64,000 bases of DNA. It comes from Salinibacter sp. 10B. Its GTDB lineage: Bacteria > Bacteroidota > Rhodothermia > Rhodothermales > Salinibacteraceae. Position 1 is the stretch's first letter. The number at the start of each line of letters is the position of its first letter. Of this stretch, positions 29,719-47,497 are shown in pieces. The notes under the pieces were generated by a model. It was not told the DNA's origin. It saw nothing but the letters and a program-made list of their open reading frames with translations, and did no database searches. The stretch lies in assembly GCF_002954405.1 (NCBI RefSeq), contig NZ_MQWC01000004.1, positions 3,598,668 to 3,662,667 on the forward strand, in the 5' to 3' direction. Made by a program: the position numbers and the translations under genes.

Positions 29719-30867
29719 ATGCCGATAAAGCTGCAAGTTGTTAAGGAGGACGCCGCCGGGGAGCCGGCCGACTATCTGTTCGAGCAAGACCGGATTACGA
29801 TTGGACGCGGAAGCGGCAATGATCTCACTCTGCCGGATCAGAAGGTAAGTACCGAGCATGCCGAGATTCGGAGCAAGGATGGGGATTATCTTCTCATTGA
29901 TCGGGATAGCAAGAACAAGACGTATGTGGATGGGCAACGCGTGGGGGAGACGCAGCCCTACCGGCTCAACAGTGGGGATGTCTTTCGAGTGGGCGACTTC
30001 AACATCGAGTTTGCGCCCCTCTTCATGCCATCGTCCGAGCAGACTGCTTTCGCGGAGGAGGATGAGGCGGCCAATCCATTCGAGAAGCACGCGAAGCAGC
30101 TGGCATCTGCCCTTGAGGGACTAGCCGAGACCTACAAGTTTGCCCCGGCCGAGGACCGAGAGGAAAATTTTGCGGCCGCCGTGCAGGACCACCTCGACGC
30201 GGAGATCGCCGACGACGAGGCGGTGCAACGCGTCCTGTCGCAACTGGGAGCAGACGCATCGTCCACCGAAGCAGCGGAGAACGATACGTTTTCTCAACAA
30301 CCAACGGCGGACGACGAGGCGGTCGATGAGGTGCTTGGCACATTGCTGGAAGGGGTGGCCCGAATGATTAGTATTCCGAACCACTTCTGGCGGGAGTTTA
30401 CCGGCGAAACGCTCGAGCACCCGGAGGAAAAAGACTTTCTGTACGGAGCGGACCTTGACGACCTTCGGGCCCGCCTTCTTGACGACTCGTTGTCCGAAGA
30501 GCAACGAGAGGAACGCCTTCAGCACTTGAGTGATGCCGTCGACAGTCTCGTGGCGCATAACATGGCCATGCTCGCTGGCTACAAGAAGTCGGTGATGGCG
30601 GGAAGTAAAGAACTATTGCAACGGGTGAACCCGGTCGATGCAATCGAGGAGGCGGAGGAGGGCGGCATGATGGACAGCTTCTTTGGGGGCGGGAGCCAAT
30701 CGGAGCTCGAGCGGCTTCACGAAGAGTGGCGGGACCTCTTCCACGGCGAGTGGGGGGCACTGGAAAGCGAACTCTTCCGGCCCACCTACGTGGATGCGTA
30801 CGTGGACCGAATGGCCCAGACCTGGGACATGGACCGGGCCGAGATTATGACGAAGGAGGACGCGTAA
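29719..30867 (+). CDS. FHA-domain protein with type VI-like FHA C-terminal region
   Basis: A 382-residue cytosolic protein. Residues about 5-100 are a forkhead-associated domain, which binds phosphothreonine: ITIGRGSGNDLTLPD, VSTEHAEI, NKTYVDGQRVG and NSGDVFRVGDFNIEF. An acidic linker (about 105-215) follows. From about 215 to the end, VLGTLLEGVARMIS, AHNMAMLAGYKKSVMAGSKELLQRVNP and WRDLFHGEWGALESELFRPTYVDAY resemble the C-terminal region of TagH/ImpI-type type VI secretion FHA proteins. No other type VI genes are nearby. A Ser/Thr kinase follows 87 bases on; the FHA domain probably reads its phosphorylation. The ATG at 29719 starts the conserved domain; the longer frame to 29554 is not supported. 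Confidence 0.85.
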   Translation: MPIKLQVVKEDAAGEPADYLFEQDRITIGRGSGNDLTLPDQKVSTEHAEIRSKDGDYLLIDRDSKNKTYVDGQRVGETQPYRLNSGDVFRVGDFNIEFAPLFMPSSEQTAFAEEDEAANPFEKHAKQLASALEGLAETYKFAPAEDREENFAAAVQDHLDAEIADDEAVQRVLSQLGADASSTEAAENDTFSQQPTADDEAVDEVLGTLLEGVARMISIPNHFWREFTGETLEHPEEKDFLYGADLDDLRARLLDDSLSEEQREERLQHLSDAVDSLVAHNMAMLAGYKKSVMAGSKELLQRVNPVDAIEEAEEGGMMDSFFGGGSQSELERLHEEWRDLFHGEWGALESELFRPTYVDAYVDRMAQTWDMDRAEIMTKEDA

Positions 30868-30954
30868 GATAGGCGTCGAAGAAACAGCCTGACAGGAGCA
30901 GCGATACGCGTGATTCGTTCCCGTACTGACGATTGACCCCGAGGGACCAACTCC

Positions 30955-33102
30955 ATGAACGACGCCGTCATCGGAAAGGAAGTGGATGGATACCGCATCC
31001 AGGCCGTACTCGGGCGCGGCGGCATGGGGACGGTGTACAAGGCGGAAGACGTGAACCTGTCGCGGACGGTGGCGATCAAGCGCATCAATCCGGGACAACA
31101 GGAGCGGGAGTCTTTTATTCACCGATTCCGCTCCGAGGCGCAGGCCCTGGCTCGCATCGACAGCCCGAATATCGTCGGGGTCTATGCGCTTCGCGAGACC
31201 GACATCGGTCTCCTGATCGTCATGGAGTATGTGGAAGGGGGAACGCTAAAGGATCCAATCGAGCGTCAGGGAGCAATGGTGCCAGCGCAGGCCCTCCCCA
31301 TTCTCGAGCAAACCATGCAGGCGTTTCACGATGCCCACAGCGCCGGGGTCATCCACCGCGATATCAAGCCGGAAAACGTCATGCTGACGACGGATGGCAT
31401 GGTGAAGGTGACCGACTTTGGCATTGCGAAGCTCCGACAACCGGACTCTGGAGAGACCGTCACGCAGGGGGGGCAGGGCGGCACACTGAAGTACATGTCG
31501 CCCGAGCAGATCTCAAACATCAGTGAGGTCGATGCGCGAAGTGATCTCTATTCCCTGGGCATGACCGCCTACGAAATCCTTGCGGGGGACCTGCCGTTCG
31601 AGGATACTGATACCGACTTTGATATTATGCGGAAGGTGGTGGAGGGACAGATTCCTCCGCCTGACGAGCTCAACTCCGAGATCCCTTCGGGGCTTGCTCA
31701 GTGGATCATGGGGGCCATTGAGAAACGGCAGGACGATCGATATCAGAGTGCCGAGGAGATGCTAGAGGCCCTTCGGAAGGCCGATCGGCAGAGTACGGGC
31801 AAGACGATCACACAGCCCGACTGGGAGGTTGACGACGGCAGTGCGGACGTTGACGAGACACGGACGATTGTGCCGGAGGAGACGGATCCGGGGCAGACGG
31901 CGGGGCCGGACGAGGGGTACGCCGATCAGACGGAAACCGTCGTGCCGGAAGAGGGCGATGGCTCTGAAAAAACAGGGGGAGAGACCGTGATGGCCCCCGA
32001 GGGGACGACTCAACCGTCCGTGCCGGAAGCCGAGACGGACCCTGCTTCTGCTACAGAGTCCGGAGCTGACGACGACGATGCGGAGGACGAGATGAGTTGG
32101 GCCGTTGTGGGGGGCGGGATTGTTGCCGCACTGATCCTCATTGCTGGAGGGGCTTTGGCATACACCCAACTGGGTGGGGGCGGCGGGGCCGCGACGGCGA
32201 CCCTGGCGCTCGATACGGCCCCGGCTGGCGCTACCGTTCTCGTGAATGGGGACACTGCCGGAACGACCCCCATCAAGGGCCACGCCGTTGAGGCGGGAAC
32301 CGTTCAGTTGCTGGTTCGAAAGGAGGGCTATTCCAGATGGGACACGACCCTAACGGAAGTGAAGGGCGGAAGACGGGTTGCTCTCCAAGATGTGACGTTG
32401 GTTGAGCTAAGAACGGACGAGTCGGCTGCGATGAGTGCCGACAACGCCGGGGGAGCGTCGTCGGATGGAGGGGGAGAGTCGGAACAAGTAGCGAACACGA
32501 CTGAGCAAGCGTCCGCTGACGCTTCCGGCGCGACGTCCACGACAGAAAATCAGGATACACCCCCCGATCCCTCTGCGAGCGGCGCAGCCGACGTTGAGAC
32601 GGGCGGGGCCGAGACGACCACCGGCACCGTTGAGGTTACGCCCGAGCCATCTGGAACCGTTTGGGTGGATGGGCAGCAGCAACGCGGAGGGGCGATTCCC
32701 CTTGAAGTAGGACAACACACCATTACGTGCCGCCATCAGGACTACGGCAGTGTTGATACGACCCTCACCGTCTCCGAGGGACAAACCCAGACGCTGTCCT
32801 GTCATTTTCAGCAACAGGTAACTGTGAATACGGCAGGGGGCACCTACGGTCAGATCTGGCTGAATGGAGAAGTGACAAATGAAAGTACGCCCAGTACGCT
32901 CACCCTCTCGCCGGGGACATACCGGATTGAGGTACGGCGAAAGACGTTGGAAGGCTTTCAAGTAGAGGGAGGCATCACCAAGACGGAGCGGGGAGGATCC
33001 TCTACGACCGAACGATTTTCGGGGGCGGGCTACCGGATACGAGTCGAGCCCACCTTTACGAGGGTGGAGCACGCCGTCGTCTTCAATGTGAGTCGAGAGT
33101 AA
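30955..33102 (+). CDS. Transmembrane Ser/Thr protein kinase with extracytoplasmic PEGA domains
   Basis: A 715-residue Hanks-type kinase. The kinase domain (about 10-275) is complete: glycine loop [14 protein letters not shown], Lys42 in VAIK, H134-R135-D136 in [11 protein letters not shown] and D154-F-G. A Thr/Glu/Asp-rich linker with several TETVVPEE-like repeats (about 290-375) precedes one membrane helix (about 382-405). Outside lie a PEGA domain (about 414-482: [20 protein letters not shown]), a Ser/Glu/Asp-rich linker, and two more PEGA-like units (about 556-700). PEGA domains are surface or cell-wall associated. The kinase follows the FHA gene and precedes CsgG and surface-protein genes, suggesting it senses the envelope. 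Confidence 0.92.
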
Positions 33103-33263
33103 GAACCTGTTCTCATGTACGCCCGTCTCCACATCCGATGCCGATGGGGGCGTAGACCGAACGCACATCGGAGCGGATGTGCCTGCATCCCCGGCGGGGA
33201 GGAACGGGGTCCGCAGTCGGTGCGTCCTGCCGAACGCACAGCGTATGAAAGGAAAACAGCTTC

Positions 33264-33428
33264 TTAGAGACTGTTTTGATTTCCCACGATGACAGTTCAG
33301 GCAGGGCGCGACGACTGCAGATCGTCGGGATCCAACAGGGGCTCCTTCTGAGCAACGGACGGCCCTCCAATTCCTGCGAAATACCTCGTCGATTCTCAAA
33401 CCCGATCAAAAATCAAAACAGTCTCTAA
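33264..33428. mobile_element. 165-bp MITE-like element with perfect 19-bp inverted ends
   Basis: TTAGAGACTGTTTTGATTT at 33264-33282 is matched exactly by its reverse complement at 33410-33428. If the terminal repeats start at GAGACTG, both sides are flanked by TA, as expected for a 2-bp target duplication. The 127-base interior does not encode a transposase. Internal open frames are short, though one on the minus strand runs out through the left end. This is the structure of a non-autonomous element or an internally deleted insertion sequence; the parent family cannot be named here. Confidence 0.78.
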
Positions 33429-33955
33429 GGGCCGAGAACGGCGCTGCTGTACGGAGCAGGAAGGGCAGAAGCACCTGACAGGTGCTGGTCAGGGCCGTGC
33501 TAGGAGACCCTGAGCCCCGTGCTGAATGTGGGCGCGTTGGTTGAAATCCTCCGTCGGGCGGAGCAGTCAGCCGCTGTGGCACCTCAAACGCTCAAGTCAA
33601 GCGTAGCGCCACGAATCGAATCCACTTCTGCGGCTGCCGACGATTGCTCGTGCCGCTCACGCGTGTTGGGACGCTCACCCCTTTTTCTGTAACGAAGAGG
33701 GAAGCCGACACGGAGTGGGCATTTCTACTGCTTCGTCTGTTTCTTATTGTACAGAACTGCCACACAAGAATTGATTACAGGGTTCATGGAAATTGCATTT
33801 CCGGTTTTTACATGCCCTCTCGTTATAGAAGGGCGGATAGGTGTCGCACGAATGCTCCCGTCGGGGAGGAAAATTTGTCTTTGGTAAAGTCCTTGCACGC
33901 CGAAGGCATAGCAGCGCACGAGCCACATTCTTTTAAGACCGAGAGGTGACTCAGC
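33429..33955. other. Non-coding region before the first csgG-like gene
   Basis: No supported gene. A palindrome AGCACCTG-A-CAGGTGCT lies at 33470-33486, within a GC-rich stretch with other short self-complementary words. From about 33640 the sequence becomes AT-richer, consistent with a promoter for the csgG-like gene at 33956. A 101-codon open frame (33644-33949) has no conserved features. The 160 bases from 33103 to 33263 before the MITE also lack a gene but contain CACATC-N6-GATGTG-type inverted words. Confidence 0.4.
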
Positions 33956-35053
33956 ATGCTTACGTCACGAACGTTTACCGGCCCATCTTTTTTCTTCCTC
34001 TCCGTTCGGTGGGGAAGCGCTCTTCTGCTCGGAGCCGTTCTTGTTAGCAGCCTTGGAGGGGTGCAGCGCGCCGCGGCGCAGCAGTCTGCTTTTGAGCAAG
34101 CAAAGCAGAAGTACCAGTTTGCCGAGTATGAGACGGCGACCTCGCTTTTTCAGAAGGTTGCCGATAACCAGCAGGCCGATATGGCGTTGCGCCGGGATGC
34201 GCTACGATACTTGGCGCGCACGTACATCGCTCGGGGACAGAAGGGGAATGCCCGGTCGGCCATTCAGGAACTCGTGGGCACGAACCCGCCAACCGATTAC
34301 CTGAACCCGGACGTAGAGCCGCCAGCCGTGATGGACATTTACTATCGGGTCCGGAAGGAGCAACGCGGGGACTACAGCGTGCAGGAACAGCAGGGACTGC
34401 AAACCCTCGCCGTTATGGACTTTTCGAACAACTCAATTACCCGCCGGGAAGACTATCAGGGATTGAGCAAGGGGCTTCCGTCCATCATGATCAATCATTT
34501 GACAGGGGGGACGGATCTGCAGGTGATTGAGCGAGAGCGGATTGAATGGCTTCTGAACGAACTCAAGCTGCAGAAGCAGGGAGACAAGGTTGATCAATCG
34601 ACCGCGGTGCGTACCGGGAAGCTTCTCGGAGCGAATGCGGTTGTGTTTGGGAGTTTCATCGCGACGGAGAACCAAATGAATGTTTCGGCGCGCGTTGTGA
34701 AGGTAGAAACGGGCGAGGTGTTGTTCGGGGACCAGGTGCGCGGAAAGCCGGATGAGTTCTTCAGTCTCATCAAGGAACTCAGCCAGAAGGTGACGAAGAG
34801 CATTAACGTCGAGATGGAGGAAACGAAACTTGGCTCCGAACAGACAAAATCGCTGGATGCAATGATGGCATATTCCGACGGACTGAGTCTGCTTGAGGCG
34901 GGGAAGTACCGAGAGGCACAGGGCAAATTCAAGCAGGCCCTGGAATACGACGATAGTTTTGCGAAGGCTCGAAAGAAGATGAAGAGCTTGAAGCCAATGG
35001 TCGCCAGTCTGGGTGCCGAAAACGAAAATGCTTCATCGTCAAGCATGGAATGA
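33956..35053 (+). CDS. CsgG-domain protein with flanking TPR-like repeats
   Basis: A 365-residue exported protein. A signal sequence (to about residue 41, RAAAQQ) is followed by a TPR-like region (FEQAKQKYQFAEYETATSLF, about 45-110), then a CsgG-type domain (about 145-290) with LQTLAVMDFSNNSI, DLQVIERERIEWLLNELKLQ and TGKLLGANAVVFGSFI, and a final TPR-like hairpin (YSDGLSLLEAGKYREAQGKFKQAL). CsgG of curli systems forms an outer-membrane export pore as a lipoprotein; this protein lacks a lipobox and is closer to CsgG/FlgO-like periplasmic forms. A paralogue follows 151 bases on. Confidence 0.87.
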   Translation: MLTSRTFTGPSFFFLSVRWGSALLLGAVLVSSLGGVQRAAAQQSAFEQAKQKYQFAEYETATSLFQKVADNQQADMALRRDALRYLARTYIARGQKGNARSAIQELVGTNPPTDYLNPDVEPPAVMDIYYRVRKEQRGDYSVQEQQGLQTLAVMDFSNNSITRREDYQGLSKGLPSIMINHLTGGTDLQVIERERIEWLLNELKLQKQGDKVDQSTAVRTGKLLGANAVVFGSFIATENQMNVSARVVKVETGEVLFGDQVRGKPDEFFSLIKELSQKVTKSINVEMEETKLGSEQTKSLDAMMAYSDGLSLLEAGKYREAQGKFKQALEYDDSFAKARKKMKSLKPMVASLGAENENASSSSME

Positions 35054-35204
35054 CAGGAGCGATCGGCTGCCCGGAATTTCGGAGAAGGACCGTTGAGAGA
35101 AGAGATTTGTGTGCTGAGGGAGCCAGTGCAGAGTGAAGAGTTCCACAGGACACGCTCATTGGAAGAGGCATCCTCGTGTACCTAGTCAGATCTCGCTTGA
35201 GCTC

Positions 35205-36605
35205 ATGATCGACGACGAACGCGGCCCGGGCGCATTGGTCCGATGGGGGCGCGCAGTTGGGATCGTATATTTCCCCGACTCGCTTGGCCGTTTCCTGGTG
35301 CTGCTCTGCCTTGTCGTAGGAGTGGGCGGGTGTGGCGGACCTTCGGTCACGATGGATCAGGATCCGGACGCGTTCGAAGAGCAGGAGGATCAGCTTCAGG
35401 AGCGGCTCTCGGACCATCCGGACGACGGGGAGGCGCTTCGGGACCTTGGCTCCATCTATCTTCGGACGGATCGGCCGTCCCAGGCGTACGATGCGCTCAA
35501 GAAGGCCTTTTCGCAGCGCCCGAATGACCCGAAGGTCCTTTTCTATTTAGGGTTGGCCAGTGAGCAGGTGGGGCGCCGGGAAGGGGCCCTCAAGCTCTTT
35601 GGGCGCTTCGACGAGGTGCCGAAGGAATCGAAGTATCACTCCCTGATGGAGGGACGCTACGAATGGCTTGCCCGGAAGCAAGCCCAGCGACAGGCCCGCG
35701 AGATGATCGCGCAGGAGCAGGCTCAGCCGGCGGATGTGCGCACTGACGTCTCGTCGGAGGTGGTGGCGGTCGTGCCGATGCAGTACCAGGGGAGTGAGGA
35801 GCAGTATGCGCCGTTGGGGCGCGGATTGGCGGAGATGTTTACGACCGACCTTGCGAATGTAGGACGTCTTCAGGTCGTGGAGCGGGTACGGCTCCAGGCC
35901 ATTTTGGACGAGCTAAAACTCGGGCAGAGTGAGTACGTTGACCAGTCCACAGCGCCGCGTGTGGGGCGTCTCGTGGGGGCGGGGCGTCTCGTTGGGGGAT
36001 CCTACCTGGTCACCGACGACGAAGAGGTGCGTCTGCAGGTGACCCTCGCCAATGTCGGGACGGGAGAACGCATTCCACAGCTCGACAATCAGCGTGCTCG
36101 TCTCTCCAACCTCTTCGACCTTCAAACCAAGGTTACCTTCTCGATTGTGGACCATCTCGGGGTGGAGTTGACGCCGCAAGAGCGGGCGGCCATCCAGGAA
36201 GTGCCGACCCAAAGCATTCAGGCGTTCCTGGCGTATAGTCGGGGGTTGATGGAAGAGGATCGGGGCAATTACGGCACGGCAGCCCAATACTACCAACAGG
36301 CCCAGCAGATTGACCCGAACTTCGAAGCCGCGGCTCAGCGAAGGGAGAGAGCGCGTAGCGTCGAGGCTGGGGGCGGAAGCCAACAGGATGCTCTCGCTAA
36401 CGCTGAAAAGGGCAACTCGGGAGAGAATACGGCTCCGAGTGAATCGATCAATCTTGTAAACCAGCGCCTTCAGAACATGGGGGTTATTCCTGCGGGAGGC
36501 CCCGGCGATGACGAACGTGACGTTGCCCAGGAAGCGGAAACGGCTGAGGAGAGTCGCGAGCTGGACGATCCGCCGGATCCGCCGTCCGGAAGTGGAGGGC
36601 AGTAA
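35205..36605 (+). CDS. CsgG-domain lipoprotein with N-terminal TPR repeats
   Basis: About 466 residues. A hydrophobic core LGRFLVLLCLVVGVGG leads to a lipobox Cys (VGGCGG), so it is a probable lipoprotein. TPR repeats follow (HPDDGEALRDLGSIYLRTDRPSQAYDAL; PNDPKVLFYLGLASEQVG), then a CsgG-type domain (VVAVVPMQYQGSE, LGRGLAEMFTTDLANVGRLQ, LDELKLGQSEYVDQST, VGRLVGAGRLVGGSYL) and a last TPR (YYQQAQQIDPNFEAA). The shared VDQST and LNEL/LDELKL words show it is a paralogue of the preceding gene. The start is uncertain: ATG 35205 gives a long n-region, and a later alternative start nearer the hydrophobic core is possible. Confidence 0.85.
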   Translation: MIDDERGPGALVRWGRAVGIVYFPDSLGRFLVLLCLVVGVGGCGGPSVTMDQDPDAFEEQEDQLQERLSDHPDDGEALRDLGSIYLRTDRPSQAYDALKKAFSQRPNDPKVLFYLGLASEQVGRREGALKLFGRFDEVPKESKYHSLMEGRYEWLARKQAQRQAREMIAQEQAQPADVRTDVSSEVVAVVPMQYQGSEEQYAPLGRGLAEMFTTDLANVGRLQVVERVRLQAILDELKLGQSEYVDQSTAPRVGRLVGAGRLVGGSYLVTDDEEVRLQVTLANVGTGERIPQLDNQRARLSNLFDLQTKVTFSIVDHLGVELTPQERAAIQEVPTQSIQAFLAYSRGLMEEDRGNYGTAAQYYQQAQQIDPNFEAAAQRRERARSVEAGGGSQQDALANAEKGNSGENTAPSESINLVNQRLQNMGVIPAGGPGDDERDVAQEAETAEESRELDDPPDPPSGSGGQ

Positions 36606-36894: not shown

Positions 36895-39800
36895 ATGACC
36901 CATTTCTACTGCTCGTATCGCCGCCATTTTTGGATGGGCGAAACCCCATTGGAGGAGCGCTCTCAGCCTGAGAAGCCATGGGGGCTCTATGCCTTCGTTT
37001 TGGTCGCGGTGCTTCTCTTTAATCCGGCCTCGCTGGTGCAGGCCCAGACCGTGACCGACGTGCGTCCGGAGAGTGGCATTCCGGGCCAGACGGTGCAAAT
37101 ACACGGCAAGCAGCTGGGGGGAATCTCGACCGTTACCATTGGAGGGACCACGGCTCTTATCTTGAGTCAGTCCAGCACGAGGCTTGAAGTGGAGGTTCCA
37201 AGTGGAGTGCAGGGACCGACGGCCATCCAGGTGGGCACCACAACGGCGGCCGAGCGGTTTACCGTTCTCACGGGCGGATCCACGACCTTTGCATCCGCCA
37301 GTACGCTTGCTCCTACTCGCAACGGAGAAGTCACCCGCGGCGACTTCGATGGGGACAATGATCTTGATCTCCTTGTAACTGGAACCAACGAGAGTGGAAG
37401 TGTCACCACAACCCTCTACTACAATGACGGCACGGGACAATTTTCGGAGGCTAGTGACGTGAGTTCGTCCCTCGCGAATGTACGCAACGGAACGGCGGAC
37501 TTTGCGGATGTGAACGGGGATGGTCGGCTCGACATTCTTCTGACAGGGACGAATGGCAGCGGAACCCCAATTACTCGGTTATACACCAATGATGGAGGGT
37601 CACTCGATGATGGAAGCCTTACGATTACAGAACAGGTGGAGGCCGCACCGGCAAGCGGGTTCGAGAATAGTGCGGTGGCGCTAGGGGATCTTGATGCAGA
37701 CGGCGATCTCGATCTCATTGCGGCGGGAGACACCACCGGGAGTAATGATCGGGCCACCGTACTTTACGAAAACGACGGAAGCGGAAACTTTACGGCGGCG
37801 CCAACACCGAGCAGTGCTTTCGTCGACGTTGAGAATGGGACCGTCGATTTTGGAGACGTAAATGGGGATGACACCCTCGATGTGGTGGTAACGGGCGTCG
37901 ATGGAGGCGGAAGCCCCACCACCACTGTGTACGAATACGATAACGGGACGTATGTGTCCACCAGCTTGTCGCCCGGCGTTACGAACAGCGCGGTGGATTT
38001 GGGCGATGCGACGGGCAATGGCGTGCCCGATCTCGTGGTGACTGGAAGCGACGGCAGCTTCGGACAGGTGGCTGAGTTCTTCACGAATGGGGGGGAGGGA
38101 AGCTTCACCAGTGAGCAGGTGTTGTCTCCGGCGGTGGAGAACGGAACGGCGGACTTCGTCGACGTCGACGGGGACGGAGATCTCGATCTGGTGACGACGG
38201 GGAATGACGGGGACATGATTCCATATGCGACAGTGTACGAGTATGATGCGACCGACTCTCCGCCCTACTCGATAGTGGGGACGAGGCAGGTCACCCCCAC
38301 CACGAGCAGTGCCTCCGCCGTCGGCGACTATGACGGCGACGGGCGGGTCAACTTGTTCTTTACGGGAGAGACCAGTTCTTCTGCACGCTCGGCGATTCTC
38401 TACCGTCCGGCTCTTCGAATTACAAACACATATCCCTCTCCGTACGCGCCGAGTTTCTCAACCAGCAGCGACATGGAGTTTACCTTCAGTGCGCCGGTGG
38501 CCGAGAGCTCCGGGTTGGCTGATAGTATTGTCGTTCGGGGAAGTCAGCATGGGGGGATTGGCGATGACGGCTCCCTGACCGGGGGGACTGAGACACTTCA
38601 GTATGGACCGACGCCTTCTTTTGCCCCTGGGGAACGGGTGCAGGTGCTTTTTCGGAACGGGCTGGAGAGCACAGGCGGCCTGTTTTTGCCGCGTCCGTTG
38701 AATTTTGGCTTTCGGGCAGCTGCATCGAAGGGACCAGCAGACTTTCCCGTCAGCCGTCCTGTCTCGACCAGTGAGACGGGAGCCCGGTCCGTCGCGTCGG
38801 GATACCTGACTGGAAATGGGAATCTTGATCTCGTTGTGGCGGCTGCTGGAGACGATGAGGTAACGCTCTACGAAGGAAACGGCGACGGAACCTTCAGTTC
38901 TGGGTCGGTGCTCGGGTCGGGGATCACCTATGCTCGGGCCCTCACGCTCGCCGACCTGAACGGCGATGGGCGTCTGGACGTAGTGGTGGGATCCGGCGAA
39001 AACGAGTCCAGCGATCCGAATGACATCATTCGGTACTACCTCAACGAAGGGGCAGGGTCTTTTGGAGAAGGACAGGACATTACCAATGGAGGGAATGCCG
39101 ACGATGTGCGAGATCTAGAGGCCGAGGATTTCGACGGCGATGGCAGCGTGGATCTCGTGGCGGTCACGTCGGACAACAGTTCGATCTACGTCTATCAAAA
39201 TAATAGTGGCAGCGAGGAGGACGGGGCTCCGACGTTCACCGAGGTTGCAGTGAATGGCGGAAATGCAGACGATCCACGAGCCGTTCACGTGGCGGATGTG
39301 GATGGAAATGGCACTCCCGACCTCGTCGTTGGGAGTGTGTCGGACGATAATATCTCGTGGTACCCCAACAACGGAGGGAGTTTTGGAAGTGAGAAGGACG
39401 CCGGGTTCCTTTCGAATACGGTAAACCCCCGCGATCTGGATGCCGCTAATCTGGACGAAGATCAGAGGGTCGAGATTGTCGGAGTCGAGCGGGGGAACGA
39501 TTCAAATGCGGGGGATGGGGCGATAGCCGTCTATGCTCCCACCACCAGCATTGAGGGATCCATTCAGTGGAGTCGGACCGAGGTGGCCCGTACCGACAGC
39601 GCGCTAACGGCCACGACCGCAGATGTCAATGCCGATGGGCATATCGACATCGTGGCGGGCTCTGTTGGAGGCGACTCGCTGGTGTGGTACGAAAACATCA
39701 GTGGGGGCGGCTTCGGACCCGGAAAGACAATGGACGTAGGGATCCATAACGTGCAGGATGTTATTGCCGTCGACGTAGATGGAGACGGAAGCCTCGACCC

Positions 39801-42800
39801 GGTGATTGCCGCTCCTACGGAAGATCTCGTGTCCCTTTATCCGAACATCCCCGCGCCACGTGTTTCGAGTACGACACCTGCGCAGAATACGGTGGGAGTG
39901 GATACCTCCCTCTCGCGGATTTCGTTCAGCTTCACTAAGGAGCTCGACCCGAACAGCATAGGATTGAATAGTGTCACGCTTGCTGGGTCTCAGTCCGGAC
40001 AAATTTCGCCAAGCGGTGTGGACCTCTCCAGCTCGAGTGAAGAACTTGAAGTGGAGCTAGGGAGCGAGGTGACCTTCCACCCCGGAGAGAAAATCACAGC
40101 ATCTGTGTTGGCGGACAGCGTGCTTGCCTCTGATGGATCGGCCCTCGATACGACGTACACCCTGTCCTTTAGAGCGGCGACGGCGTCCGGATCGGGAAAC
40201 TTCGTGGATGCAGGCATTCCGCTTACGGGAGTGAGGGGAGGAGATGCGGATTGGGGAGATTATGATGATGACGGAGATCTTGATCTCATCCTTGCGGGAG
40301 ACTCAAATGGCAAAAATACGACGGGCGGAGAGGTCCTTCGCCTCTACGAGAACAATGGGGATGGGACGTTTACAGAGTATGATGTGCCGTCGGATCTTGC
40401 GGCCGATGCTGGAGTGATCGGGGTGCAGGATGGGGCTTCGGTTGAGTGGGGGGACTACGACCATGACGGGAATTTGGATCTGGCTGTATCCGGATACAAC
40501 GGAAGTAGCAGTCCATACGACAAGACGAGAGTCTACCGGCAACGGGACGATGGGCAGTTTGAAACGGTGGCAACGGAGACGGGGGTGTTTGCGGGGGCGA
40601 AGGGGAGCTCGCTTTCCTGGGCTGACTACGACGGCGACGGCGATTTGGACTTGGTCGTGACCGGGCCAAGCAGTGATGAGGGGGGGACGGCCTACCTTTA
40701 CCGATACGACGAAAGCACGAACAGCTTTGTGGAAGCCAACGTGCTTACTCCGGTCAATACGATCAGTGGGTCCGACTGGGGGGACGTGGATAATGATGGA
40801 GACCTGGACCTGGTCGTTACGGGGGCCACCAGTAGTGGGAGCAACACCAACATCTACCGAAATGATGGCGACCCCGATGCGGATGGGGCCGTCGAGTTTG
40901 GGCGCTTGGGGATGTCCAACATCGTCTCTGGTAGCGATGTCGACATTGTTGGGGCCTCCGCCGAGTTTGGAGACGTAAATGGCGATGGGGCCCTTGATCT
41001 CCTCGTGACGGGAGAGGACGAGAGCACGGGCGATCCGAAAACGCGGATGTACGTGAACGAGAATGCTGGGACGATCGCGTTTAGCACTCTTACCACGCCG
41101 GTTCGCCAGGACAGCACAAAGGACGGAGAAGCGGCGTTCGGCGATTTTTCCGGCGATGGGCGTTTAGATGTTGCGTCCGTTGGCGACAGCACTACATTTG
41201 ACGATCCCAACGAGAGTCAGTCAGCCATTTTTCGCAACGAGGGAGGGAGTCCGCCTTCATTCACGAAGAGCAATGTCGCCATCACGCCCGTTGATTCGGC
41301 CTCGGTGGCGTGGGGGGACTACAATGGGGATGGCACCCTCGACCTAATCGTAACCGGGGACGACGAGACAGATACCCCAACGGCCACGCTGTACAAGCAA
41401 TCCCCAGCCTTACAGGTCACCAGCACTGCCCCGGCCCGACACACGGTGGGGGTTGACACTGCGCGGGGAAGCATCTCGGCTACCTTCAACAAGGAGATTG
41501 ACTTCACAACGTCGAGCGATCGCGTAGCGGTATTTGGGGACCAGTCGGGGCGCGTTCCGCTGAGTGGGGTACAGCAGGGAGCGACGTCTCGTGAGCTCGA
41601 AATTGTAGTAAGCTCCACGTTCGACTTTCAGCCCGGGGAGCGAGTACGCGTATCGGTGTTTGCTGACAGTACTGTTGCTACGGACGGAACCACCCTCGCG
41701 TCGACCTTCACGTTCCAGTTTACTGCCGCTGCCCAATCCGTGACGCCGTCGTTTCCGGTCGATCGTGTGCTCTCGGACACCGTGGACGTCGTCACGAGCG
41801 TAGAAGCCGCGACGGTGAATAATTCGTACGACACCCCGGACGCGCTGGTCGCGATTGATGGAGGCGACGACAAAGTTGGATGGTTCCGCAACACGGACGG
41901 GCAGGGGGGCTTTTCCGGATTGCGGGACATCGAAACTGGGTTTTTCTCCCCCTACGATGTCGTTCCGGGCGACCTTGACGGAGACGGAACGGTGGGGGTG
42001 ATTGGGGTTTGGGCCAGCTCGAATGTAATACAGTGGTACCCGAACGATGGAGCAGCTCCCCCTTCCTTTTCGACTTCACAAGAGGTGACACTCAATGGAG
42101 GGGCGCCCCAGGATGCGACCGCTGCGGATCTTGATGGGGATGGAGACCTGGATCCCGTCGCGGCTCTCGCGGCCGACGATGCCGTGGTCTGGTACGAAAA
42201 TCGCGTCGATCAGGGAAACGGGTTCGCGGCTGCGGATACGATTGCGCGCGTTCCCCACCCCGACAAGGTTGCGATTGCCGACGTGGACGGGAACGGCACA
42301 CTGGATGTGATCTCCGCGTCGGGGGGCACCAGCGGAGATACAGACAATCGTCTTGCGTGGCACGCCAATGAGGATGGAGATGGCAGCCGATGGACGACGC
42401 TGAATATCAGTACGGCGGTGAGCGGGAATAACAGCGGGCAAAACATCGGCCTTGGGGTGGGCGATGTCGATGGAGACGGGGCCGTGGATGTGATCACGAG
42501 TTCGTACCTTGACGGCACCGTGTCGTGGTTCGACAACACGACGGGAGACGGGAGCGATTGGACGAGATCCTTCATTACGCAAGACGCGTCCGGGCCCACA
42601 GACGTAGCCCCATTCGATCTCGATGGGGACGGCGACCTGGACGTCCTCTATTCGGACTATCTGGAGTCCCGCGTTGCGTGGGTTGAGAATACGGACGGAA
42701 ATGGAAGCTTCTCTAGCCAGCACCGGCTCGTGACCGACGATACCCCGCAACCGTTGAGCGTCACGGTGGCGGACCTGAATGGCGATGGACAACTGGACGT

Positions 42801-45800
42801 GTTGGCGTCGGGGAGTTCAACAGTGGCCTGGCATCCGAACACAACGATCGCGCCGCAGGTCGTAACGAGGCCGCCGAGTGATTCGTCTTCGAACGGGTTT
42901 ACTGCTGAGGCACTGGTGAACCCGGGAGGGGCGTCTACGGATGTTGTCTTCGAGTACGGAAAGGATCTCTCGTTCGGGGCCGACTCCACGTTTGCAGCCT
43001 CGTCCAGTCCCATTGCTGGAGACGACACGGTGAATGTGGGGGCGACAGTCGACACGCTGAAGGCGGCGACCAAATACTATTATCGGGTGGTGGCAACGAA
43101 CAGCGTTGGGACCAACACTGGAGAAATCGATTCGGTAACGACCAAGGTGGCCGATCCCCCAACCGTCACGGCCGACTCTGTAAGGAGCGTGACGGATACG
43201 AGTGCCGTTCTGTACGGGACCGTCAATCCTGGAGGAGACACGTCTCGGGTGTATCTCGCGTTTGGGTTAGCGACGGCAGATGCGCCGACGGTACATCCGA
43301 TTGACACGCTTCGGACCGCCCTTTCGAGCGATCAAGTCGTGAGTCAGGTGGTGGATACCCTCCAGCCGAGCACCGAATATCGGTATGGGTTCAGGGCTGT
43401 CAATATAGCAGATTCAACGAGCGGCGGTCCTCAGACCTTCACCACCTCTAACGTTCCCCCCTCCGCGGTGAACGACACGACGACAATCGATGAGGATCAA
43501 GCGGTGACAATCCCCGTCCTGGCGAACGACACCGATCGAGGAGGACGGCTCGATACCTCCACCGTTGCGGTTGTGGACTCCCCGTCTGTTGGGACTGCGG
43601 AGGTAGAAGGGGAAACGGGCAAGATTACCTACACGCCGACACCGGACTCCAATGGGACAGATCGCTTTGCCTACGCAGTATCCGATGACTCCAGCGCCGT
43701 GGACACGGCGGAGGTGATTATCACAATCGAAGCGATCAACGACCTCCCGCTCACCCGTGCCGACACTGTTTCGGTACAAGAGGGCAGTGCCGCGGTCGTG
43801 CCGGTTCTTGAGAATGACACTGATGTTGAGGGACCGTTAGACACGACCTCGGTGGCCATCGAACGCGGTCCGTCGAAGGGGGCCGCGTCCGTCACGACGG
43901 AGGGACAAATTCGGTACGAGCCGGACCCGAATTACAGCGGGCCGGACAGCCTGCGGTACACGGTGGCAGATACATCGGGAGCCCGGTCCCAGCCGACGCC
44001 GGTCCGGTTTGATGTCGGGGCACTTACACTGGCTTTGCCGGACACAGTAGAGGCGGGGATTGCTTCCGTGGGACACCCGCGCTCTTTGGCTGTCACAGTG
44101 AAAAATGAAGGGGAGATCCTACTCACTGGCCTGTCGGCGTCCGTTGAGGCAGGGGACAGTTCTGATTATGCATTGCGGGAGAGCAGTCTTGAGGACACTC
44201 TTGCCGTGGGGGAGAGCGGGATGGTGCCACTCCGGTTTGAACCGTCAACGCCAGGAGGACGAGAGGCTCGTCTGATAGTGACGGCAGCGGAAGGGACGGC
44301 CGACACTGCCACGGTGCGGGGGCGGGGCGTGGGCGTGACGGTCGATGCTCCACCGCCGTCGCGCGGGACATCCGCCAATATTGGGTTCACCTTGGAGGGG
44401 GGGATCGACGCAATCACTGACGCGGATGCGGGGAATGGCTCAACCTTGTATGTCCGCAAGGGAGGAGCGAGAACCTACCGCGCTCGTTCCCTCTCAAAAG
44501 CGGGACAGGATCCCCTTCAATTGCAGGCACAGGTCCCCGATACCCTTGTCTCCGCGCGCGGAATCGACTACTTCGCCGTCGTTGTGGGGAAAGACCCGGT
44601 CGGAAAGCAAGATACGCTGACGATTCCGGCAGGCGGCTCCCGTCGCGCCCGGCGTACGCCGCGTCACCTGCCGGTGCAGTTCGACTTACTCCGCCCACCG
44701 TCGCAAGCAGAGTTTCCGGCGGAGAGTTATCGAATGGTGTCGGTGCCGGCAGTGCCGGAGCAGGGGGTGAAGGAGGCCCTCAAGAACCACTACGGTTCGT
44801 ACGACCGAGGGAAGTGGCGAGTGCTCCGATGGGCCGCTGAGGCAGAGGAGTATCAAGAGTTCCCCTCCATCGATTCTCTGGAGGTCGGAGAGGGATTCTG
44901 GCTGGTTACGTCAGAGGGAACGCCGCCCCGGATTGAGAGCGGGCAGACGCCGGACGCTGATCAGGCACGAATGCTGACGCTGGAGCCGGGTTGGAACCAG
45001 GTGGGGAGTCCATTCGGATACTCTGTCCCGTGGGATACGGTGCAGGCAGCCTCGGGCCTGAGCGGGAAAGAAATCGACGGGCCAATCGCCTATCGGGACA
45101 GTGCTTATTGGTCAGGACAGTCTCGGTTGATGCCGTGGGAGGCGTACTTTGTGTTCAATGCGCAATCAGAACCGGATACGTTGGTGGTACCGCCGGTCGG
45201 GAGTGAAGGCGCTGCGGGGAATGGCGGAAAGAATAGTCTCCTTGCGAGTGGACAGCAGGGAACCGATCCCACCACTCGACGGTCGGCGACTCCACAGGAG
45301 GGGGCGAAGACAAGCAATCCCCCGGTTAACAAAAGGTCTCCCCGAAAGGCCGCCCCCGGACAGGCGTCTGCGTCGAAGGCCCCGTCCAGCCCAACGTCCC
45401 CCGATAAGTCCGCCTTAGAATCTGCCTCGTCGAAGGAAGGGTCCTATACGCTTCATTTAAGAGCTCGACCGGACGGAAAGGTGCAGGGCGGACGTCCCGC
45501 GACGGTCACGCTTGGCCTGCGCACGGCAGCCAAGACGGGACGAGACCGATTTGATCAGGCACAAGCACCGCCGATTGGGCAGAATGTGCGACTTGGGGTG
45601 CTCCAGAAAACCGGGGGACGGTCGGTCCCACATGCTGAAAGCTTTAAGCCTTCTGAGGGGGGCGGACAGGCCTGGCGGGTCCGGCTCACCAACCGACTGG
45701 ATGAGACGATTCCGGTTCGGCTTGGGCTGACAGAGGCCGGCCCGTTGCCTTCAGACTATCAGCGGTACATATTGGACCTGAAGTCTGGACGACGGCGAGC

Positions 45801-46194
45801 TCCGGGAGCCCGCCTTGAGCTAGATGCAGGCGCAGTGCGAGTGCTGAAAGTCATTGTTGGAACTGAAGCCTACGCCGAAGCGGAAAGTGAAGGGGTGGAT
45901 CTCGATACCTTCACGGACGCCCTTCGGGGAAATTACCCGAATCCATTTGAGGACGAGACGACGATCGCGTACACGCTGAAAACTAGGCGAGAGGCGGTCA
46001 CTGTCGCCATCTACGACGTGCTGGGGCGACGTATCAACACCTTGACGGAGGGAGCGAAACGATCTGCTGGTCTTCACCGGGTGCAGTGGGACGGGACGAA
46101 CCAGCAGGGACGACCGGTTGGGAGCGGCGTCTACTTTTACCGGGTTAAGGCAGAAGGCTTTCAGAAGACCCGGAAGATGGTGCTAGTTCGATAA
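36895..46194 (+). CDS. Giant VCBS/FG-GAP, Ig-like and cadherin-like surface protein with C-terminal sorting module
   Basis: A 3099-residue exported protein. A signal core (LYAFVLVAVLLFNPASLVQAQ) precedes an IPT/TIG domain (about 51-125). Then come four blocks of calcium-binding-type FG-GAP/VCBS repeats (D-x-D-G-D-x-D-L-D; about 142-502, 632-985, 1112-1502, 1619-1985), separated by three SbsA-type Ig-like domains (about 506, 986 and 1504 on; the last two with AxNTVGVDT/ARHTVGVDT). Fn3-like units (1986-2182), two cadherin-like NDT-DEDQAVTIPVLANDTD units (2187-2372) and a HYDIN/ASPM-like domain (2376-2478) follow, then a poorly defined region and a C-terminal NYPNPFEDET...IYDVLGRR...GVYFYRVKA...KMVLVR module (3011-3098). 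Likely a secreted adhesin or surface-layer-like protein. ATG 36934 is an alternative start. Confidence 0.88.
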   Translation: MTHFYCSYRRHFWMGETPLEERSQPEKPWGLYAFVLVAVLLFNPASLVQAQTVTDVRPESGIPGQTVQIHGKQLGGISTVTIGGTTALILSQSSTRLEVEVPSGVQGPTAIQVGTTTAAERFTVLTGGSTTFASASTLAPTRNGEVTRGDFDGDNDLDLLVTGTNESGSVTTTLYYNDGTGQFSEASDVSSSLANVRNGTADFADVNGDGRLDILLTGTNGSGTPITRLYTNDGGSLDDGSLTITEQVEAAPASGFENSAVALGDLDADGDLDLIAAGDTTGSNDRATVLYENDGSGNFTAAPTPSSAFVDVENGTVDFGDVNGDDTLDVVVTGVDGGGSPTTTVYEYDNGTYVSTSLSPGVTNSAVDLGDATGNGVPDLVVTGSDGSFGQVAEFFTNGGEGSFTSEQVLSPAVENGTADFVDVDGDGDLDLVTTGNDGDMIPYATVYEYDATDSPPYSIVGTRQVTPTTSSASAVGDYDGDGRVNLFFTGETSSSARSAILYRPALRITNTYPSPYAPSFSTSSDMEFTFSAPVAESSGLADSIVVRGSQHGGIGDDGSLTGGTETLQYGPTPSFAPGERVQVLFRNGLESTGGLFLPRPLNFGFRAAASKGPADFPVSRPVSTSETGARSVASGYLTGNGNLDLVVAAAGDDEVTLYEGNGDGTFSSGSVLGSGITYARALTLADLNGDGRLDVVVGSGENESSDPNDIIRYYLNEGAGSFGEGQDITNGGNADDVRDLEAEDFDGDGSVDLVAVTSDNSSIYVYQNNSGSEEDGAPTFTEVAVNGGNADDPRAVHVADVDGNGTPDLVVGSVSDDNISWYPNNGGSFGSEKDAGFLSNTVNPRDLDAANLDEDQRVEIVGVERGNDSNAGDGAIAVYAPTTSIEGSIQWSRTEVARTDSALTATTADVNADGHIDIVAGSVGGDSLVWYENISGGGFGPGKTMDVGIHNVQDVIAVDVDGDGSLDPVIAAPTEDLVSLYPNIPAPRVSSTTPAQNTVGVDTSLSRISFSFTKELDPNSIGLNSVTLAGSQSGQISPSGVDLSSSSEELEVELGSEVTFHPGEKITASVLADSVLASDGSALDTTYTLSFRAATASGSGNFVDAGIPLTGVRGGDADWGDYDDDGDLDLILAGDSNGKNTTGGEVLRLYENNGDGTFTEYDVPSDLAADAGVIGVQDGASVEWGDYDHDGNLDLAVSGYNGSSSPYDKTRVYRQRDDGQFETVATETGVFAGAKGSSLSWADYDGDGDLDLVVTGPSSDEGGTAYLYRYDESTNSFVEANVLTPVNTISGSDWGDVDNDGDLDLVVTGATSSGSNTNIYRNDGDPDADGAVEFGRLGMSNIVSGSDVDIVGASAEFGDVNGDGALDLLVTGEDESTGDPKTRMYVNENAGTIAFSTLTTPVRQDSTKDGEAAFGDFSGDGRLDVASVGDSTTFDDPNESQSAIFRNEGGSPPSFTKSNVAITPVDSASVAWGDYNGDGTLDLIVTGDDETDTPTATLYKQSPALQVTSTAPARHTVGVDTARGSISATFNKEIDFTTSSDRVAVFGDQSGRVPLSGVQQGATSRELEIVVSSTFDFQPGERVRVSVFADSTVATDGTTLASTFTFQFTAAAQSVTPSFPVDRVLSDTVDVVTSVEAATVNNSYDTPDALVAIDGGDDKVGWFRNTDGQGGFSGLRDIETGFFSPYDVVPGDLDGDGTVGVIGVWASSNVIQWYPNDGAAPPSFSTSQEVTLNGGAPQDATAADLDGDGDLDPVAALAADDAVVWYENRVDQGNGFAAADTIARVPHPDKVAIADVDGNGTLDVISASGGTSGDTDNRLAWHANEDGDGSRWTTLNISTAVSGNNSGQNIGLGVGDVDGDGAVDVITSSYLDGTVSWFDNTTGDGSDWTRSFITQDASGPTDVAPFDLDGDGDLDVLYSDYLESRVAWVENTDGNGSFSSQHRLVTDDTPQPLSVTVADLNGDGQLDVLASGSSTVAWHPNTTIAPQVVTRPPSDSSSNGFTAEALVNPGGASTDVVFEYGKDLSFGADSTFAASSSPIAGDDTVNVGATVDTLKAATKYYYRVVATNSVGTNTGEIDSVTTKVADPPTVTADSVRSVTDTSAVLYGTVNPGGDTSRVYLAFGLATADAPTVHPIDTLRTALSSDQVVSQVVDTLQPSTEYRYGFRAVNIADSTSGGPQTFTTSNVPPSAVNDTTTIDEDQAVTIPVLANDTDRGGRLDTSTVAVVDSPSVGTAEVEGETGKITYTPTPDSNGTDRFAYAVSDDSSAVDTAEVIITIEAINDLPLTRADTVSVQEGSAAVVPVLENDTDVEGPLDTTSVAIERGPSKGAASVTTEGQIRYEPDPNYSGPDSLRYTVADTSGARSQPTPVRFDVGALTLALPDTVEAGIASVGHPRSLAVTVKNEGEILLTGLSASVEAGDSSDYALRESSLEDTLAVGESGMVPLRFEPSTPGGREARLIVTAAEGTADTATVRGRGVGVTVDAPPPSRGTSANIGFTLEGGIDAITDADAGNGSTLYVRKGGARTYRARSLSKAGQDPLQLQAQVPDTLVSARGIDYFAVVVGKDPVGKQDTLTIPAGGSRRARRTPRHLPVQFDLLRPPSQAEFPAESYRMVSVPAVPEQGVKEALKNHYGSYDRGKWRVLRWAAEAEEYQEFPSIDSLEVGEGFWLVTSEGTPPRIESGQTPDADQARMLTLEPGWNQVGSPFGYSVPWDTVQAASGLSGKEIDGPIAYRDSAYWSGQSRLMPWEAYFVFNAQSEPDTLVVPPVGSEGAAGNGGKNSLLASGQQGTDPTTRRSATPQEGAKTSNPPVNKRSPRKAAPGQASASKAPSSPTSPDKSALESASSKEGSYTLHLRARPDGKVQGGRPATVTLGLRTAAKTGRDRFDQAQAPPIGQNVRLGVLQKTGGRSVPHAESFKPSEGGGQAWRVRLTNRLDETIPVRLGLTEAGPLPSDYQRYILDLKSGRRRAPGARLELDAGAVRVLKVIVGTEAYAEAESEGVDLDTFTDALRGNYPNPFEDETTIAYTLKTRREAVTVAIYDVLGRRINTLTEGAKRSAGLHRVQWDGTNQQGRPVGSGVYFYRVKAEGFQKTRKMVLVR

Positions 46195-46327
46195 GAGAAC
46201 TGGGGGGCTACCGTGGGGGCGTTAGCATCTGCATTCCTTTTTTGTTCAGAACGAGAGCCCAAAGGGCATCCCCGAGAAAGAAGTTCTTATATACGTCACT
46301 TCCTCCAAATTGACAGATGGGCCCGTG

Positions 46328-47497
46328 ATGAAAGACTCGCCATTTTCCACACCGTCTGATGCTCGGTGGCTTCGTGCTCTTCTTCGTTCAAGTGTTTTCG
46401 TCGTTGCCGTTGGACTGTTGGTGACGTTCACCGGTCCCAAGGCTGCTTGGGCGCAGTTGGAGGGCCCGTCTCTTCGAAGTGTCCAGCGGCCAGTGTCTGT
46501 TTCTGTCGACCCGACGTATCAAGTCTACGAGACTGAAGGAGGGCGACAGTTGACTGAATTCAGCACGCGCCTGTCCATGTTCGTACCGGTGACCACGCGC
46601 CTTACAGTTCGGGCACGGGGAGAATATGCCCGAATGGACGGGACCCGCCTCACGTCCGTAGGAGGGGGGACCGACCTTTCGGGGCAGGTATCCTACGCCC
46701 AACCAGTGGCCGACGGAAGTGTGGTGTTTTCTCTTCAGGCCAATGCGCCGACTGGCAAGCAAAAGCTCTCAGACGCGGAATTGGAGACGACCCGATTCAT
46801 CAGCCAGAATGTCTATGACTTCCGGGTGTCGAGCTTCAGCCGAGGATTTTCCCTGGCCCCACGAGTGACGTGGGCGGTTCCCCTTTCCGACCGGTTTGCG
46901 GTGGGCCTTGGAGCAGGGTACCAGTACCAGCGAGGATTCCGGCCGCAGGCGTCGCTGGAAGAAGATTATGTGCCGGGGGACGGCGTTGGAGCCAACGGGG
47001 GATTCGACTACAAGCTCACGGAGGCCTCGGCGTTGGGACTGGATGTGGCGTATCGGTGGTACCAGACCGATCGGGTGGGAGGCGTACCCCGGTTCGATTC
47101 CGGTAGTCGCCTGACGGGAACGGTTCGATACCTGCGGCGCTCGGGATTTACAACGATCCGGGCCGTGGTTCGATACGCAAATTGGGAAGAGAGCGAATTT
47201 GGCTTTCGACGGCAGAGCCCGAATCGCGGACAGGTGCTTCCTCCACACGGAATGGTTCTCACGTCCTATGAAACTCGGCTCGCCGAAGGAATGCGTCTTC
47301 ACCTTCGAGCATCAGGGCACTGGTATGGAGAAACCATTCAGGACAGTCCAATGGGAAACCGGAAGCTCCTCGGTCGTGCGTACGTATCGCCCTCATTTGA
47401 GATTGGGGAGGTTCTGACTCTGGAGCCTCATGGAACGGCATCATTCGGAAGCTACCGCGGATATGGAGGCGGGCTGCGCATGATAGGAACCTTTTAG
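46328..47497 (+). CDS. Predicted outer-membrane beta-barrel protein
   Basis: A 389-residue exported protein. A signal peptide (SSVFVVAVGLLVTFTGPKAAWAQ) precedes a chain of amphipathic strands alternating with polar turns and ending in GYGGGLRMIGTF, a terminal Phe typical of barrel insertion. Examples are LTVRARGEYARMDG, VVFSLQANAPTG, FAVGLGAGYQYQRGF and LGLDVAYRWYQTD. It resembles transporter-like outer-membrane proteins that other organisms place beside surface-protein genes, but I cannot name a family. It is the last gene before the respiratory operon, 133 bases after the giant protein, and could be its outer-membrane partner. The ATG at 46328 (MKDSPFSTP) is preferred over the upstream start at 46310. 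Confidence 0.72.
   Translation: MKDSPFSTPSDARWLRALLRSSVFVVAVGLLVTFTGPKAAWAQLEGPSLRSVQRPVSVSVDPTYQVYETEGGRQLTEFSTRLSMFVPVTTRLTVRARGEYARMDGTRLTSVGGGTDLSGQVSYAQPVADGSVVFSLQANAPTGKQKLSDAELETTRFISQNVYDFRVSSFSRGFSLAPRVTWAVPLSDRFAVGLGAGYQYQRGFRPQASLEEDYVPGDGVGANGGFDYKLTEASALGLDVAYRWYQTDRVGGVPRFDSGSRLTGTVRYLRRSGFTTIRAVVRYANWEESEFGFRRQSPNRGQVLPPHGMVLTSYETRLAEGMRLHLRASGHWYGETIQDSPMGNRKLLGRAYVSPSFEIGEVLTLEPHGTASFGSYRGYGGGLRMIGTF

Follow-up and report, generated by a model that had tools for sequence, protein, structure and literature searches.

A 64,000-nucleotide stretch of the Salinibacter sp. 10B genome (assembly GCF_002954405.1, contig NZ_MQWC01000004.1; hereafter the window, to which coordinates refer) contains six plus-strand genes encoding, in order, a forkhead-associated (FHA) protein, a Ser/Thr kinase with a PEGA ectodomain, two CsgG-like proteins with TPR domains (CsgG1 and CsgG2), a giant protein with a type IX secretion system (T9SS) signal, and an outer-membrane beta-barrel. 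Gene order across genomes indicates that this six-gene arrangement is not a product of chance and forms one conserved unit. We interpret the block, with about an even chance of being right, as a standalone, duplicated trans-envelope Ser/Thr-kinase signaling module that would work as an inward receptor and that has sister copies within type VI secretion system (T6SS) gene clusters. It is best filed as a variant of T6SS-type kinase-FHA envelope signaling that is uncoupled from the T6SS cluster in this genome. The features of the block are as follows.

29719..30867, plus strand: FHA protein, 382 amino acids (aa), paralogue of T6SS TagH/Fha by sequence, with an FHA domain (PF00498, 74.8 bits) and a C-terminal region
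30955..33102, plus strand: transmembrane Ser/Thr kinase with a PEGA ectodomain, 715 aa (Pkinase, E = 5e-51; PEGA, E = 3.5e-16)
33103..33955, no strand: kinase-CsgG1 gap containing dispersed repeats; frame interrupted by stops, repeat copies elsewhere in the genome
33263..33429, no strand: repeat resembling a miniature inverted-repeat transposable element (MITE), with 20-bp perfect terminal inverted repeats; at least 13 other genome copies, 88-98% identical
33956..35053, plus strand: CsgG1, exported; TPR, TolB-N/LpoB/CsgG-like core, TPR (PF03783, 51.8 bits; cut-off, 20.8)
35133..36605, plus strand: CsgG2, second TPR/CsgG-like protein (PF03783, 39 bits; cut-off, 20.8; TPR families)
36895..46194, plus strand: giant T9SS-signal protein, 3099 aa, with FG-GAP/VCBS repeats, Ig-like domains, and a T9SS type A sorting domain
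44332..46191, plus strand: conserved C-terminal part of the giant protein (residues 2480-3099), common to T9SS-signal proteins of most module operons seen
46310..47497, plus strand: outer-membrane beta-barrel, approximately 16 strands predicted (AlphaFold2 [AF2] pLDDT, 81.8)

An earlier note on this DNA, made from the sequence alone, had listed six plus-strand genes at 29719-47497; all six open reading frames (ORFs) are present at that place. The note did not include the repeat-bearing 853-bp gap, the T9SS sorting domain of the giant protein, or the relation of the FHA protein to TagH. The FHA ORF is open from 29554 (437 aa), and its homologues begin at MPIKLQV, i.e., at the ATG at 29719 that the note had chosen as the start. 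As read by eye, the kinase has intact catalytic motifs, including DFG, and one hydrophobic segment at residues ~383-403. It scores below the curated NCBIfam cut-off for PASTA kinases of the PknB/Stk1 type (NF033483, 315 bits versus 450), and its ectodomain match is to PEGA. CsgG2 is a probable lipoprotein, judging from a lipobox (VGGC) read by eye. The barrel has a weak PF13505 match (19.3 bits, under the cut-off of 28.7), and a fold search with its model returned generic porin, CdiB, and BamA matches that distinguished no family.

To describe the block in other genomes, we searched 60 genomes (own included) for the FHA protein, of which 30 had a match. The search for CsgG1 and the barrel covered 34 chosen genomes, 22 drawn from the 30 that matched the FHA protein and 12 from the 30 that did not; the positions found adjoin one another. 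When bacterial and archaeal genomes were scanned with an alignment of CsgG1, 67 loci were obtained; the 25 that matched over most of their length were used for gene order, and the other 42 were examined for fusions only. In all 22 loci with more than 1 kb of upstream sequence, the kinase gene lies directly before CsgG1, which at L098 is a tandem pair. CsgG1 is accompanied by another CsgG gene in 24 of 25 loci (at L095, a T9SS-signal protein gene is between the two); the arrangement is therefore not due to chance. Among the 20 loci with at least 5 kb of downstream sequence, the barrel is present in 15 (it is missing from L090, L091, L096, L101, and L105) and a same-strand gene for a T9SS-signal protein in 14. 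The latter gene follows the barrel in L089 and L112 and lies between the CsgG genes in L095; that of L109 is inverted and was left uncounted. Of the 17 loci with 2.8 kb or more of upstream sequence, 12 have a PP2C phosphatase gene in that region (confirmed with Pfam in L097). At L104 (48-806), the slot before the kinase that PP2C holds elsewhere is taken by an adenylate/guanylate cyclase gene (PF00211, 96 bits). The loci come from Rhodothermota and other Bacteroidota-labeled genomes, Ignavibacteria, and Zixibacteria, where the block is partial. Adjacency is thus conserved when compared in the way that the earlier note had proposed, and its view of the kinase, the two CsgG/TPR proteins, the T9SS-signal protein, and the barrel as one system holds across these lineages, in part for Zixibacteria.

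Domain fusions point in the same direction. Two Planctomycetota proteins (L114 and L117) fuse kinase and CsgG domains, and a Latescibacterota protein (L129) fuses CsgG and PEGA, with a T9SS-signal protein carrying the conserved domain of the giant protein two genes away; such fusions argue that these domains work together. We found no description of the module in open-licence papers.

In relatives, the block is physically linked to T6SS genes, the names of which were assigned first by eye and then carried over by home-made profiles. It lies inside clusters with many T6SS genes in G047, G037, and G035 and adjoins TagH-TssJ-K-L-M in G033, G029, and L107. On contig C149 of G018, a single strand carries FHA2-kinase-CsgG1-CsgG2-T9SS protein-barrel-TagH-TssJ-TssK-TssL-TssM (TssJ, TssK, and TssL confirmed with Pfam). 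Both G018 and G022 carry a T6SS-embedded copy and a standalone copy; Roseithermus sacchariphilus is a species with the T6SS-linked module. By analogy, the copies in T6SS clusters most likely fill the role of the threonine-phosphorylation pathway of PpkA and Fha, together with that of its sensors in the envelope. The module and that pathway, as described for Pseudomonas and Agrobacterium (PpkA, PppA, Fha/TagH, and TagQRST), both have a membrane Ser/Thr kinase with an extracytoplasmic part, an FHA protein (in the module, one that appears homologous to TagH), and a probable outer-membrane lipoprotein together with a periplasmic protein; in relatives of the window block, PP2C and location in a T6SS cluster are also alike. 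In contrast, the envelope half of the module comprises PEGA, two CsgG/TPR proteins, a T9SS-signal protein, and a 16-strand barrel, and the module is also present in genomes in which no T6SS was found and alongside FHA proteins of other kinds. Strict membership in the PpkA-PppA-Fha pathway fails on the phosphatase and on location.

The T6SS cluster of Salinibacter sp. 10B itself is found on the same contig (C4, ~935-957 kb) and encodes TagH, TssA, C, E, F, G, J, K, L, M, ClpV, Hcp, VgrG, and TagF; Pfam confirms TssA, C, E, F, G, J, K, L, M, TagF, Hcp, a VgrG-type protein, and a Clp ATPase. The window block (~3.63 Mb) is outside this cluster (~0.95 Mb), approximately 2.7 Mb away, whereas in relatives it is within the cluster. 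The module might regulate the distant cluster in trans, the operon of the latter having lost its kinase block. This explanation fits a T6SS cluster with no kinase, CsgG, or barrel gene among its gene calls, and the window kinase is the only one in the genome at E ≤ 1e-60 among the 18 of 38 candidates scored. However, only four of the nine standalone-clade genomes (G000, G008, G018, and G022) have TssK; it is absent from the other five, i.e., G002 (62% complete), G014 (92%), G015 (98%), G016 (99%), and G021 (86%), and TssC was not found in the three of these five that were searched (L089, L092, and L093). Longimonas halophila KCTC 42399 is one species with the standalone module in which neither TssK nor TssC was found. 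We consider regulation in trans rather unlikely as the whole function of the module.

The distribution of the block is wider than that of T6SSs. TssK was found in 21 of the 60 genomes, and TssC in 10 of 25 named genomes (G015 and G016 being outside the TssC search). None of five Ignavibacteria had TssC, though the block is present there with other FHA proteins. In a sample of 296 genomes of the phylum, TssC was found in 13 and CsgG1 in 14 (model matches at E 1e-40, four of them only partial), with seven genomes having both. Further T6SS-type genes were seen in the course of these searches. A TssB-TssC fusion-type paralogue (VipA and VipB in one protein) is located beside the kinase block in relatives (L097:3358-5190), and the window genome has a homologue of this fusion at ~4.12 Mb of C4 (L176:8705-10570), with no other T6SS or module match in 20 kb. 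A same-genus genome with no FHA, CsgG1, or barrel match carries a divergent T6SS (L169; G012:C51).

Phylogenetic trees address the origin of the standalone copies. In the CsgG1 tree (34 rows), the standalone copies form a clade (support, 97/92) that is joined with the T6SS-embedded copies of G018 and G022 (96/89), and the next branch, G032/G045, is also T6SS linked (87/83). Quick trees with SH-aLRT support only were computed for the kinase, the barrel, and CsgG2. The standalone clade and its T6SS-embedded sister from G018/G022 are supported for the kinase (99 and 96) and the barrel (97 and 97); for CsgG2, the union with the embedded copies has a support of 98 and the standalone clade by itself 68. 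Because the four trees agree, the standalone envelope block most likely arose as a whole, by duplication of a T6SS-linked form. The architecture and ancestry of the block are well supported.

The FHA protein appears to be a full-length homologue of the T6SS phospho-regulator TagH/Fha: residues 51-421 of the 437-aa ORF match the FHA protein of the genome's own T6SS cluster with 32% identity. The T6SS_FHA_C domain (PF20232) reaches 19.5 bits in the window protein, under the cut-off of 23.7, compared with 31-41 bits in three T6SS-linked TagHs; it has no match up to E 0.01 in the clade mates from G016, G014, and G015. We had considered its fading as a sign of a changed output and dropped this idea, as the FHA protein encoded in the genome's own T6SS cluster likewise has no PF20232 match up to E 0.001, and the domain is therefore not discriminating. 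Its weakness in the window protein thus does not weigh against regulation of the T6SS in trans either.

The FHA partner of the block varies. T6SS clusters carry TagH plus a protein that combines FHA and a lytic transglycosylase SLT domain (L097:5283-7016, Pfam; G047 gene 032), which is perhaps a phospho-controlled peptidoglycan cutter. At L100 and L178, a double-FHA protein and an FHA-oxidoreductase-ferredoxin protein are encoded just upstream on the same strand; the same pair is downstream on the opposite strand at L099, and L103 has a double-FHA protein upstream. The second member of the pair unites a pyridine-nucleotide oxidoreductase, FHA, and a 2Fe-2S ferredoxin in one protein (L099:8920-11355, L100:1987-4326, and L178:12013-14304). 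Longimonas and G021 have a second TagH-like FHA protein (L156 and L157), the surroundings of which gave no match to any further gene model of the module or the T6SS apart from a weak T9SS tail.

The earlier note had pointed out that CsgG-type pores export surface fibers in curli systems. The AF2 model of CsgG1 (pLDDT, 82.8) consists of TPR helices, an alpha/beta core, and further TPR helices. The core is closest to TolB-N (Z = 13.2; root mean square deviation [rmsd], 2.3; 128 aligned residues), ahead of FlgT (Z = 12.2), PelC (Z = 11.4), and CsgG (Z = 11.3); TPR chains score equally high in this search, and Z values below 13 can reflect a common arrangement. Foldseek placed LpoB first (E = 6e-5) and also listed the CadC periplasmic domain (E = 2e-4), which is not among the 50 rows listed in the Z-score comparison. 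When the CsgG1 alignment was compared with solved structures by sequence, TPR proteins gave the better matches, and CsgG and LpoB appeared only at E ~0.2. Superposition of model residues 147-286 on CsgG residues 47-252 gave an rmsd of 3.8 over 120 aligned residues and left 86 CsgG residues unpartnered, as expected if CsgG1 has no membrane hairpins. The hairpin of the model at residues 228-249 has a 4-residue turn. The modeled CsgG1 core is thus predicted to be without the pore-forming membrane hairpins of CsgG, a result that covers the CsgG1 model only. CsgG1 resembles the CsgG of curli secretion in its family domain (PF03783 above the cut-off) and differs from it in the hairpins, in the TPR domains that flank the core, and in being encoded with a giant protein that has a T9SS signal. 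No curli partner (CsgA, CsgB, CsgE, or CsgF) was present among the neighbors scanned, no genome-wide search having been made. Export of the giant protein through a CsgG pore was rejected on the CsgG1 model and on this T9SS signal, for which the genome has the translocon.

The alpha/beta core is what CsgG1 has in common with TolB-N, LpoB, PelC, and the CadC periplasmic domain; it differs from these in its TPR flanks and operon context and, from TolB, in having no beta-propeller. A housekeeping function, in which the CsgG/TPR pair would control peptidoglycan or outer-membrane maintenance with the kinase as a stress regulator, would suit both the LpoB- and TolB-N-like fold and the FHA-SLT transglycosylase of T6SS-linked clusters. 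The patchy distribution in the phylum sample (14 of 296 genomes) is nonetheless unlike that of a housekeeping system, and we regard this explanation as very improbable.

The giant protein has 23 FG-GAP_3 stretches and a C-terminal T9SS type A sorting domain (TIGR04183, 38.8 bits; cut-off, 23). The translocon protein SprA is encoded in the genome (TIGR04189, 1673 bits; G000:C4:2270733-2278091), as in 59 of the 60 genomes, own included. Matches to residues ~2500-3099 extend to Ignavibacteria among the T9SS-signal proteins encoded in module operons, the shortest being whole proteins of 552-562 aa; the L112 protein has only the tail in common. The T9SS-signal proteins of the module range from 552 to 3099 aa, and the N-terminal arm is variable: FG-GAP here, IgGFc-binding-type in the T6SS-embedded copy of G018, and none in the 552- to 562-aa forms. 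No Pfam or NCBIfam family matched from residue 2480 to ~3000, and a search of the conserved part against solved structures and NCBIfam found only the sorting/FlgD-like tail (best structure, E = 0.008). Without the sorting tail, the conserved part was found in 43 of 195 loci, many of which overlap. The matches recognized outside modules are in L129 and in a Salinibacter PEGA/TPR cluster (L053, L056, L057, and L171). In the window genome, this cluster (L171; C4, ~833-843 kb) encodes a three-PEGA protein, a TPR protein, and two S74-chaperone proteins, as well as a T9SS-signal protein of 634 aa in which the conserved domain is present; other Salinibacter have a kinase near a TPR gene matching that of L171. 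The giant protein resembles T9SS type A cargo adhesins in its sorting domain, its FG-GAP repeats, and the presence of SprA in the genome, whereas its conserved ~500-aa region before the sorting signal tracks the kinase operon.

A rival explanation, close to that of the earlier note, is display control: the kinase and the FHA protein would relay the state of the cell outward, and the T9SS-exported giant protein would be assembled or anchored by the CsgG/TPR proteins and the barrel as dedicated factors. The giant and barrel genes do adjoin (4-5 bp in G016 and G015, from longest-ORF starts), and the conserved C-terminal domain tracks the module. However, operons without a T9SS protein in the slot retain the kinase, the CsgG pair, and the barrel; export of the giant protein is assigned to the T9SS; the CsgG1 model has no pore hairpins; and the same block is also attached to T6SS and redox-type FHA proteins. 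Display control is therefore doubtful, and we judge it unlikely, as constant envelope parts with a changing FHA partner fit a receptor with exchangeable outputs better.

The spacings along the six window genes are 87, 853, 79, 289, and 115 bp, compared with 68, 174, 300, 105, and 4 bp in G016 and 43, 114, 0, 26, and 5 bp in G015 (relatives measured from longest-ORF starts). Kinase and CsgG1 are separated by 250 bp in G014 and by 358 bp in G002, so that the 853 bp of the window is the longest of the five compared. It contains no long plus-strand ORF and carries dispersed repeats, i.e., the 167-bp MITE-like element and an adjoining second repeat. At least 15 further repeat matches occur in the genome; of these, 13 match the first element and 2 match the second (87% identical). 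These counts are lower bounds from 16 of 84 candidates scored. The promoter and terminator scan was uninformative (8 promoter-like sites versus 5.1 expected and 7 terminator-like sites versus 13.9 expected), and Rfam gave no match in the window at the gathering score. The block is flanked upstream by accA, in the opposite orientation, and downstream by a multihaem cytochrome gene and a gene whose product, on inspection by eye, looks like a molybdopterin/iron-sulfur respiratory subunit. A clean empty site was sought in Salinibacter genomes without the module, and none was found; in the four that were examined, the genes downstream of the block are kept, and accA is not within 10-13 kb on the other side.

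Several observations weigh against the interpretation of the block as a duplicated signaling module. First, the ancestry of the FHA protein is less clear than that of the envelope genes. An FHA tree with two long Longimonas-type rows sets the standalone FHA proteins apart from all T6SS-linked ones, a tree without these rows joins the family's own TagHs weakly (62/23, best tree), and a union with G018b/G022b alone is not rejected (p-AU = 0.296); PF20232 also fails to separate standalone from T6SS-linked FHA proteins. Second, the window operon has no PP2C of the kind seen in relatives. The best PP2C match in the genome scores 44.8 bits, and those of the nine standalone genomes do not exceed 55 bits, compared with 210-342 bits for the module PP2C of six other genomes. 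Third, the block is not uniformly kept: the FHA protein has no match in 10 of the 12 other same-genus genomes searched, L105 has CsgG1 with no other module gene within 10 kb downstream, and no T9SS protein is encoded between CsgG2 and the barrel in G002, G029, G033, G045, G046, and G055. Finally, the repeat-bearing gap could split the block into two transcripts.

The signaling interpretation builds on features that were computed directly, i.e., the families, gene order, descent as a unit, T9SS signal, hairpin-free CsgG1 model, and changing FHA partners; from these, we infer the physical contacts, partners, inward direction, phosphorylation, and output of the following route. The T9SS-exported protein, with its conserved C-terminal domain and variable repeat arm, would sit at the surface with the 16-strand barrel, and the CsgG-like TPR proteins would span the periplasm and contact the kinase at its PEGA ectodomain. 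In response to a change at the surface or in the outer membrane, the kinase would become active and phosphorylate Thr, and the FHA protein would read or carry the mark and thereby switch the output. In T6SS clusters, this output may be assembly of the apparatus via TagH; here, it may be a different process, possibly, in genomes with a T6SS, that system in trans. Information probably flows inward, because the envelope side is constant while the cytoplasmic FHA side changes. More tentatively, and with somewhat less than an even chance, the module may represent a new class of receptor in Rhodothermota, Ignavibacteriota, and some relatives, composed of a T9SS surface sensor, a barrel, a TolB/LpoB-like TPR pair, a PEGA kinase, and exchangeable FHA outputs.

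In the functional analogue, TagQRST-PpkA is described as sensing outer-membrane damage, with ensuing Fha phosphorylation (PMC11881912), and PpkA and Fha are described as acting through phospho-TssL (PMC3953482). For the route from an outer-membrane event to the inner-membrane kinase in T6SS retaliation, the Pseudomonas model invokes an unknown signaling molecule (PMC11881912). The module supplies a candidate for the whole path, which would lead from a surface protein by way of the barrel and the periplasm to the kinase and the FHA protein. It links T9SS cargo to T6SS clusters, with an envelope block that appears to have been duplicated away from the T6SS, and genomes with and without a T6SS let receptor and output be studied apart. 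If the interpretation is true, one receptor could serve several outputs: T6SS firing, a peptidoglycan transglycosylase, a redox flavoprotein, and a further one in Salinibacteraceae.

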